DNA of 33,601 nt from Methanomicrobiales archaeon (lineage in GTDB: Archaea; Halobacteriota; Methanomicrobia; Methanomicrobiales; Methanospirillaceae): positions 1-33,601 of the forward strand of contig JAAEET010000019.1 in the NCBI GenBank assembly GCA_013415565.1, in the 5' to 3' direction. Shown piece by piece: positions 1,417-5,285 of the stretch; position 1 is the first letter of the stretch, and the number at the start of each line of letters is the position of its first letter. Below the pieces are notes generated by a model. The model worked only from the letters and a program-made list of their open reading frames with translations, searched no databases and had not been told where the DNA came from. Position numbers and translations under genes: made by a program.

Positions 1417-2508
1417 TCACTTGAGAAAATCTATCTCAAACTGTTTCTGGACTTTGGGGGTAATTTTTTCATTCCTCCCATATATTTGTGGCGACCGGAC
1501 CCCCGTCACGACCAGCATGGTCCGCATCTTGGCCTGCATCCCGGGATCGACCTGGGCTCCCCAGATAATGCGCGCTCCGGGGTCGATACGGTCGTACACC
1601 TCCTGGATGACTCCCTCTGCTTCGGCCATGGTCATGTCCGGACCGCCAATCACGTTCACCAGCGCGGCAGTGGCCCCGGAAATATCCACATCGAGAAGGG
1701 GCGAGCGGATCGCCTTCTTGACCGAGTCTGCCGCCTTGTCCTCGCTGTCGCTTTCTCCGACCCCGATCATGGCCACACCTCCGCGTTCCATGACCGTGCG
1801 GACATCGGCGAAGTCGAGGTTCACCAGACCGGGCATGGTGATGAGCTCCGTGATGCCCTTGACCGCCCGCATCAGGACTTCATCGGCGACCTTGAATGCA
1901 GCATAGAGCGGAAGCCGGGGGACAACTTCGAGGAGGCGGTCGTTCGGAACCACGATGACCGTATCGGCCACGTCCCTCAGCCGCTCGAGACCGGCTTCGG
2001 CATTCTCCATCCGGATCGCCCCCTCAGCGGTGAACGGCAGGGTGACGATGGCGATGGTCAGGGCTCCTTCATCCCTGGCGGCCTTCGCCACGATCGGTGC
2101 TGCCCCGGTACCGGTTCCTCCCCCGAGACCAACGGTGATGAATACCATGTCGCTGCCGGAAACAAACCGTTTGATGTCCTGCTCGTTCTCAAGCGCGGCC
2201 TCTTCCCCGATCTGGGGGATGGAGCCTGCTCCCAGGCCCCGCGTCCGCTGCCTCCCGATCAGGACCCGGTGGTCTGCCACGGTCCGGGCAAGGTGCTGGG
2301 CATCGGTATTCATGGCCACCAGCGTGGCTCCGTGGATCCCTTCCTCTTTCATCCTGGTGATGGTGTTTGAACCGCTGCCCCCGCACCCGATCACCGTGAT
2401 CTCGGTTCTGAGTTCCTTCAGTATCTGGTCGAGTTCTTCATTCTCCGTCCGTACTTCATCCGGTTCGGAACTCACCTTGGTCAGCGCCTCTTCAACTATC
2501 GATCTCAT
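1417..2508 (-). CDS. ftsZ: Cell division protein FtsZ
   Basis: 363 aa; [13 protein letters not shown], tubulin signature [25 protein letters not shown]. Confidence 0.97.
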
Positions 2509-3824
2509 CTCTTCTTCTCCAATCCCGGGATTCGGATATGTTTTTCTTCGCAGATGCGGACCATGTCCGGAGTGATCTCACGGCCATCGACGATCACCGG
2601 AGTGCCCTTCATCAGGAGACCGAAGAGCGGGCCCCTGGGCACACCCAGACTGCGCGCACGGTCCGGGTCGAACCTCGTTTTCCTGATTACGAGCTGATCG
2701 CCCTCAATTGCCGCGTTTTCTCCTCTACTTATGGTTGTAACGCATAAGCTTATTAAATCATTCAGTACAACGGATGAGTTTTCACCGGTGACAATGAAGC
2801 TGGGGAGGATCGGGGCCCGGTGTGTGGAAAGAACGATCACCGGGAGCTGCTCCAGCCCTTCGCCAAGCCCGGCAGGGTCGGCCTGGTATGCCTCGTGGAC
2901 AAGGTCCGGTGGAAGTTTGATGATCCCGGGATCCCCGTCGCGGACCGCTCCGGGTATGTGGACTGCAGCACCGGGATCAACGGACCGGGCGAGATCCCTG
3001 ACCCGGTTCCAGGTCTTCCAGGAGAGATGCTTCATCTGGAAGATCTCGGTCTCGGTGAGCCGGGGGATACCCGCCTCCGCGATCAGGGAATCCAGCCGTG
3101 AGAGCTCGTCCGGCTTCAGGGCTTTCCGATCGATATAGACCGCTTCTGCCGAGCTCTTCCCAACCAGCATCCTGAGCATCTCCCGGTCGATACGGTCCGT
3201 TTCCCGGGTATGCACGATGTGCCCGAATGCTGCCCGCGAACCCAGCGCTATCTCCGTCTGACGCCGTGCATAGTGGGTCCCGCCGATGCCGGCCAGGTTG
3301 ATGGTGACGCCCGGGTCTGCCGACAGGATGCTCCGGGCGACAGCCTCTCCCGCACGTGGATCAGCCCATTCCTGTTCCGTGCTTCCGATCTCAACGAAAA
3401 GTGAGGGCGTTTCGATCTCGCTCGGCCCGTGGTGGGTCACTTCATAGGAGACCCTGTACCCGGGAGGAGCATGGGCATTGAGCTGGATGAGGACTGCCTG
3501 CATCCATGCCGGTGCTGCCTGCGCCAGTGATGACGGCATCCCGCCGAGCGCCGCAGGACCGGTGTTCCCGGTGACATGCACGGTCAGTACCGGGATAGGG
3601 TTGATGCTCGAATGGCGCGAGAGGAAGAGGATCAGGCCGGCATCAAGCGAACGGTCCAGGTAATCCTGGGCTATCAGCCTCCCCTCGGTCTCGTGAAACG
3701 AGAGGTCGTGCCGGCAGAGGGGGAAGTTCCGGCCGGAACCCGGTCCGGAGAGCAGTTCGTCGATATGCTTCCTGATTGTCCGTCCCCCGGGATCCTGCCG
3801 GGAGTGGACCAGTGCTATCTTCAC
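2505..3824 (-). CDS. dtdA: D-aminoacyl-tRNA deacylase (DtdA/GEK1 type) with a long C-terminal extension
   Basis: [21 protein letters not shown] start (GTG at 3824, shorter than ORF track), [26 protein letters not shown] and [16 protein letters not shown] motifs; ATGA overlap with ftsZ. Confidence 0.85.
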
Positions 3825-3906
3825 CGGTCCTGTCCCCCGGCGTTTGGTCCGCGGGTTGCTACAAACATGGTAAACCCTATCTCCCTGTACATATACTATT
3901 GTTACT

Positions 3907-4083
3907 ATGGATGAAGAAAAGATTCGTTCCGTTTTTGAAAAGGAAGGAATTGGCAGGGAGATAACGTGCCCGCAGGCGTTTGCCATCTCCGGGCGCTATG
4001 ACATCGACAAGATGGATATCTCGCGGTACTGCAACAAAAACAGCATCAAGATCAGGGGTTGCCAGCTGGGCTGCTTCAGATGA
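3907..4083 (+). CDS. Small Cys-containing protein (58 aa) ending in CQLGCFR, first gene of the moeA operon
   Basis: Not in the supplied ORF track (<60 aa). Reads MDEEKIRSVFEKEGIGREITCPQAFAISGRYDIDKMDISRYCNKNSIKIRGCQLGCFR*; stop overlaps the moeA ATG at 4080 (ATGA). Confidence 0.8.
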   Translation: MDEEKIRSVFEKEGIGREITCPQAFAISGRYDIDKMDISRYCNKNSIKIRGCQLGCFR

Positions 4084-5285
4084 CCCTCTTTTTCCGGACC
4101 GTATCTGTTGAAGATGCCGTGACCGCGGCATGCTCAATCGCTCCCCTGACAGCCGTTGCGGACCTACCGCTTTCCGCCGCTTCGGGGCACGTGCTCGCAT
4201 CCGACATCACCGCTGATATCGATATTCCCGGGTTTTCCCGGGCCACCATGGACGGTTATGCCCTGGTGTCTGCCGATACCATCGGTGCATCAGAATCCCT
4301 TCCCGCAATGCTCCGTCTGACAGGGAGGATCGGAATGGGTGCACCGGCAGACCGGGATGTCTCGCGGGGGACGTGTGTCTATGTCCCGACCGGCGGAGCC
4401 ATTCCCCCGGGTGCGGACGGGCTTGCCATGATTGAGGTGACCGAGAGTATCGGTGACGATGTTCTCGTGAAACGGCCGGTTGCGGTCGGGGAGAGCATCA
4501 TGATGCGGGGCGAGGATTTCTCCCGGGGTTCCGTGGTCGTCTGCAGGGGGACCCGGCTCGCCCCCGGCGATATCGGTGCCCTGGCCGCGGTCGGTACGAC
4601 CCGTGTCCCGGTCAGGAAACCACCGGTGGTGGGAATCATCTCCACGGGCAATGAACTGGTTCCGGTCGGAGAGATCCCGTCGGGCGGGCAGGTGCGGGAC
4701 ATCAACAGCTACCTGGTCGGCGCATACCTCGTGTCGCAGGGCTGTATCCCGGAATATTTCGGCATCGTCCGCGATGACCGGGCCGCCCTCCGGCGGACAC
4801 TCGACACCGCCATCGACCGCTGTGACGCAGTCCTCCTCTCGGGAGGGAGCTCAAAGGACGATCGTGACATGACCGCCGATATCATCCGCGATGCCGGGGA
4901 GGTCCTGGTGCACGGGATATCGATAGCGCCCGGGAAGCCCACCATTATCGGAAGAGCCCGGGGGAAACCCGTCATCGGACTCCCGGGCCATCCTGCCTCG
5001 GCCCTGGTGGTCACCCTGGTAATCGTCCGCCCGCTCCTCTCCGCCATGACCGGGCAGCTTGAACGGGGGCTCATGACCCGGCCTGCAATCCTTGCCGAGA
5101 ACATCCCGTCGGTGAAAGGGAGGGAGGACTATGTGCGGGTCCGCCTGGCTGACGGCAAAGCCATCCCGGAATTCGGAAAATCGGGGCTGATCAACACGCT
5201 CGTCCGGAGTGCCGGCCTGGTCCGGATACCGGCCGGGATGGAAGGCCTCGAGGAAGGGGAAGTGGTGGAGGTGATCCTCTGGTGA
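4080..5285 (+). CDS. moeA: Molybdopterin molybdenumtransferase MoeA
   Basis: DIDIPGFSRATMDGYALVSADT, GIISTGNELV, LSGGSSKDDRDMTADII, GLPGHPASALV motifs; start set at 4080 (MTLFFRTVSVEDA) by ATGA overlap with the small ORF. Confidence 0.93.
   Translation: MTLFFRTVSVEDAVTAACSIAPLTAVADLPLSAASGHVLASDITADIDIPGFSRATMDGYALVSADTIGASESLPAMLRLTGRIGMGAPADRDVSRGTCVYVPTGGAIPPGADGLAMIEVTESIGDDVLVKRPVAVGESIMMRGEDFSRGSVVVCRGTRLAPGDIGALAAVGTTRVPVRKPPVVGIISTGNELVPVGEIPSGGQVRDINSYLVGAYLVSQGCIPEYFGIVRDDRAALRRTLDTAIDRCDAVLLSGGSSKDDRDMTADIIRDAGEVLVHGISIAPGKPTIIGRARGKPVIGLPGHPASALVVTLVIVRPLLSAMTGQLERGLMTRPAILAENIPSVKGREDYVRVRLADGKAIPEFGKSGLINTLVRSAGLVRIPAGMEGLEEGEVVEVILW

Follow-up and report, generated by a model that had tools for sequence, protein, structure and literature searches.

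A conserved four-cysteine small protein encoded ahead of the paired moeA genes of Methanomicrobiales: a candidate accessory protein of the tungsten/molybdenum cofactor pathway

Two contiguous MoeA paralogues, one of them fused to a PBP domain and proposed to bind tungstate or to be tungsten-specific, have been described in archaea (Commun Biol 2025, PMC11733289); that paper treats the choice between tungsten and molybdenum and their insertion in anaerobes, as well as the reason for two MoeA proteins in archaea, as open questions. MoeA pairs of the archaeal type are, according to the same paper, also carried by the bacterial lineages Thermanaerovibrio, Cloacibacillus, Coprothermobacter and Caldilinea. 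In the bacterium Methylorubrum, MoeA1 has been documented as the hub of a tungsten-specific route that also involves MobB and FdhD (PMC13197769). The window analyzed here, i.e. the whole stretch of 33,601 nucleotides of a Methanomicrobiales contig, carries the same two contiguous paralogues as the archaeal moeA2-moeA1(PBP) pair (see Table 1); no small upstream gene is described for the pair in the excerpted text of PMC11733289, whereas in the window a gene for a 58-residue protein directly precedes it. Among the archaea sampled, such an upstream gene was present only in Methanomicrobiales.

Table 1. Features of the small-gene/moeA region (positions refer to the window)
Feature	Position	Strand	Remarks
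D-aminoacyl-tRNA deacylase-like divergent neighbour	2505..3863	-	conserved, but regarded as lying outside the system
Conserved upstream element GGTAAACCCTAT	3869..3880	+	-38..-27 relative to the ATG; located where BRE/TATA of a leaderless transcript would be expected
TGTTACT directly before ATG	3900..3906	+	TTGTTACY shared by several genera; in part an inverted complement of GTAAAC
58-aa four-cysteine protein	3907..4083	+	invariant C21, C52, C56, K48, G55, F57; C42 in 89/90
moeA lacking the PBP domain (called MoeA2 in PMC11733289)	4080..5285	+	overlaps the small gene by ATGA; lacks a Shine-Dalgarno site
moeA-PBP fusion (MoeA1 in PMC11733289)	5282..7138	+	overlaps moeA by GTGA; strong Shine-Dalgarno site located within moeA

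The ORF opens with ATG at 3907, is translated as MDEEKIRSVFEKEGIGREITCPQAFAISGRYDIDKMDISRYCNKNSIKIRGCQLGCFR followed by the stop codon, and is a real gene. Its product contains the four cysteines C21, C42, C52 and C56, the last two forming a C-x3-C pair at the C-terminus, in agreement with the initial annotation of this stretch, which had been made from the letters alone. That annotation had named a loss of the cysteines among homologues as grounds for abandoning its proposal; instead, C21, C52 and C56 were found in 90/90 and C42 in 89/90 distinct members of the family (sole exception: L072). K48, G55 and F57 are likewise invariant in this set, and I15, I19, A24, I49 and L54 vary rarely. The net charge of the family is near neutral, averaging only +1. 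Purifying selection on the protein is strong: in pairs of relatives, synonymous sites had changed far more than amino-acid-changing sites (pN/pS 0.10-0.38). In L063, L048 and their relatives, which represent two families of the order, two extra residues (P-R/K) are inserted before the IKIRxCQLGCF tail (e.g. NQREPRIKIRGCQLGCFR). On the opposite strand, the longest ORF of the deacylase-like neighbour (2505-3986) overlaps the small gene in antisense; a start close to 3827 is suggested for this neighbour by homology.

A scan of 84,980 species yielded 31 homologues, from records titled Methanomicrobiales or consistent with that order, and all full-length ones retained the four cysteines. When 345 genomes from the phylum Halobacteriota were searched with a profile, the family was detected in 66/68 Methanomicrobiales genomes; only two marginal, implausible matches were obtained in the 277 genomes outside this order, and both (G014 and G283) were rejected as members, one being part of a longer reading frame, the other interrupted by in-frame stops. 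No family member was found in plasmids, phages and viral contigs (a match in Campylobacter phage A110b, E 0.01, lacked the C-terminal motif), in three bacterial moeA-PBP loci from plasmid records, or among the small cysteine-containing ORFs before the moeA genes of the outgroup. The family is thus conserved in sequence and position, and the absence of such homologues, which the initial annotation had named as speaking against its proposal, was not encountered; the similar proteins that it mentioned from "other anaerobes" were not recovered, homologues being confined to Methanomicrobiales in the Halobacteriota genomes, plasmids, phages and viral contigs searched. Other archaea of the phylum carry an equivalent MoeA pair without the small gene, and within the order the complete genome G056 possesses moeA genes and G243 a divergent moeA operon, both without a family member. 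The function of the small protein is therefore not strictly required, i.e. dispensable or replaceable. Two genomes of one genus, probably Methanocorpusculum, contain degenerate or divergent second copies (L099 and L100 in G213 and G267): that of L099 is broken by a stop, and in that of L100 little is left of the C-terminal motif.

The stop codon of the small gene overlaps the start of moeA as ATGA (4080-4083), as annotated initially, and the same junction with a moeA of 380-430 aa recurred in 73 distinct loci. The overlap between moeA, whose product comprises the domains N, MoCF and C, and the moeA-PBP gene had also been given as ATGA; it reads GTGA (5282-5285), since the second moeA starts with GTG. 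Shine-Dalgarno sites below -7 kcal/mol were found for 3% of the small genes and 0% of the moeA genes in the ATGA-coupled loci; the moeA-PBP gene had such a site in 48/48 loci scored. The missing Shine-Dalgarno sites and the conserved GTAAAC-NCTAT element at BRE/TATA distance jointly suggest a leaderless mRNA with the small gene as first cistron, on which moeA would be translated by termination-reinitiation after the small ORF. Both leaderless mRNA and termination-reinitiation are known in archaea (PMC7531240). The upstream element GGTAAACCCTAT and TTGTTACY, both conserved between genera, partly mirror each other, most clearly in L015 (GTAAACACTAT ... ATAGTGTTAC); RGTAAAYNCTAT was retrieved only four times from the genome of the window by pattern search and is therefore not a common motif there. 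The element may be a variant core promoter or an operator. Upstream of a moeA that no longer has the small gene (L138, G291:C16), a GTATAC/GTAAAC-like sequence is kept, similar to the one before the second Methanoregula operon. Rfam contained no element matching the small-gene region.

The small gene also occurs away from moeA, no adjacent moeA being present at L011, L024, L057, L090, L094, L097 and L098. In five loci assigned to Methanocorpusculum by family grouping (L092, L094, L095, L097, L098), it lies tail to tail with fdhA, the stop codons overlapping; three of these (L092, L094, L098) adjoin tupABC as well, a tungstate-type ABC transporter whose TupA match is below the cut-off of NCBIfam, and the other two adjoin fdhA only. 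At L090, the neighbours are mobB and formylmethanofuran dehydrogenase genes; L087 lies by an operon of the same type with formylmethanofuran dehydrogenase genes. Overall, fmd, fwd, fdh or tup genes were present within about 6.5 kb in 18/57 long loci, which stem from several lineages and include relatives that are not independent. The neighbourhood tally suggested at the outset thus placed the small gene near Mo/W genes (moeA, fdh, fwd/fmd, tup, mobB), and the lack of enrichment that would have spoken against such a role was not encountered. In G291, the small gene is kept between the deacylase and an SLOG gene without moeA, and the native-type moeA is located on another contig without the small gene; as both were retained after their separation, the small gene probably acts as a protein and not just as a leader. 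L011 and L024 likewise retain it without moeA.

Searches of Pfam, NCBIfam and PHROGs gave no credible match to the 58-residue protein, and the literature none to its motif string; the profile search of the family against PDB reached a best E of 1.2, and Foldseek found no PDB match below E 1 for two models of the protein. An RnlA_toxin match (E 0.14) was dismissed as chance. A zinc ribbon or rubredoxin-like identity was rejected, as the spacing C-x20-C-x9-C-x3-C includes one Cx3C only and lacks two CxxC-type knuckles. The AlphaFold2 (AF2) models, built from 29 and from 90 sequences, agreed in their secondary structure (helix 3-13, strand 18-20, helix 21-31, helix 35-44, strand 48-50) at medium confidence (pLDDT 78, pTM 0.56). 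A clustering of the four cysteines was not seen in the model because the C-terminal tail with C52 and C56 is its weakest, poorly defined part.

The predicted beta-helix-turn-helix-beta core accords with the helix-turn-helix-like pattern noted earlier and raises the possibility, which we consider rather unlikely, of a miniature transcription factor whose cysteines would sense Mo/W, the redox state or a metal and which would regulate further W/Mo genes besides its own operon. The position of the gene at the head of the operon, the conserved GTAAAC...TTGTTAC elements, rare in the genome, before it, a PHROG "HTH DNA binding protein" in 3/36 members (E 0.03), weak single-member matches to HTH_3 (E 0.063 in 1/36 members) and LacI (E 0.16), and homeodomain-like, non-significant Foldseek matches of the first model would suit such a regulator. 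No HTH family, however, reached any cut-off, and the upstream element occupies a BRE/TATA position and cannot be recognized upstream of the members adjoining fdhA. Moreover, the exposed positions of the putative recognition helix (36, 40, 44) are among the most variable ones (entropy of 3.0 bits at position 36; R/E/K at position 40), in contrast to the invariant cysteines and tail. The variable recognition helix, the invariant cysteines and tail and the near-neutral charge therefore favor a protein- or metal-binding accessory of W/Mo cofactor insertion over a DNA-binding protein.

Still less probable is a role in sulfur transfer, with the protein as a carrier or persulfide relay supplying the W/Mo site or molybdopterin. 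W/Mo enzymes of this type carry a sulfido ligand, and the invariant C-x3-C pair on a weakly structured tail would be compatible with this function; yet the known sulfurtransferase FdhD is already encoded in the genome, no rhodanese, MoaD or FdhD match was obtained, and the joint conservation of four cysteines fits a metal site better. Specifically, an FdhD identity was discarded since Pfam gave no FdhD-NarQ match (PF02634), and a MoaD-type carrier since the protein ends in GCFK/R rather than Gly-Gly and its model is mostly helical instead of beta-grasp. An ORF acting mainly in cis, i.e. a leader whose translation supplies moeA with ribosomes by termination-reinitiation and whose peptide matters little, is largely refuted and very improbable: the ATGA-coupled moeA genes without Shine-Dalgarno site would agree with it, but it is opposed by the strong selection at the amino acid level on a protein with invariant cysteines, by the inconstant linkage to moeA, with members unlinked to it (L011, L024, L057) or adjoining fdhA or fmd, and by the lack of an Rfam element, and a purely cis-acting leader cannot explain a small gene retained without moeA (G291, L011, L024).

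We consider the following the best reading, at about an even chance: the 58-residue product is a trans-acting Cys4 small protein that is devoted to the Mo/W cofactor pathway in Methanomicrobiales, where it would serve MoeA and MoeA-PBP as an adaptor or metallochaperone. According to this proposal, the small protein would be made together with both MoeA paralogues from a probably leaderless mRNA, ribosomes that end the small ORF restarting on moeA through the ATGA. It would most likely fold into a short N-terminal helix and the beta-helix-turn-helix-beta core; C21, C42, C52 and C56 may together make up a single thiolate site that binds Zn or Fe-S or is redox-active, and the invariant KIxxCxLGCF tail would be the functional face of this putative site. 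As part of a presumed complex with MoeA and MoeA-PBP, the protein could aid the insertion of tungsten or molybdenum, followed by a possible hand-over to the formylmethanofuran and formate dehydrogenases. Its link to MoeA is one of genomic association, because it has no homologue of known function. FdhD is encoded as a separate gene elsewhere in the same genome, and the small protein would therefore be an additional part, not a substitute for FdhD. That it represents a cofactor maturation factor of a new class, namely a Cys4 partner of the archaeal MoeA pair that selects or inserts W versus Mo and hands the metal on to both dehydrogenases, is a tentative and doubtful extension. The Mo/W cofactor pathway as such is known; the 58-residue part is new and named in no library searched. 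Methanomicrobiales are major methane producers, and the formylmethanofuran and formate dehydrogenases catalyze entry steps of their metabolism. A small protein that is probably translated in step with both MoeA proteins, and separately kept beside W/Mo dehydrogenases, is a concrete candidate for a missing part.

Compared with small HTH regulators (HTH_3, LacI-type HTH), the protein shares the predicted helix-turn-helix arrangement and a marginal profile similarity, but differs in the lack of a significant family match and in that the cysteines and the tail, not the recognition helix, are conserved. MobB and FdhD of Methylorubrum are larger proteins, unrelated to the 58-residue one; the likeness lies in the MoeA1-MobB-FdhD route itself, in which accessory proteins act with MoeA1 in the assembly of the tungsten cofactor of formate dehydrogenase, comparable to the role proposed here for the small protein.
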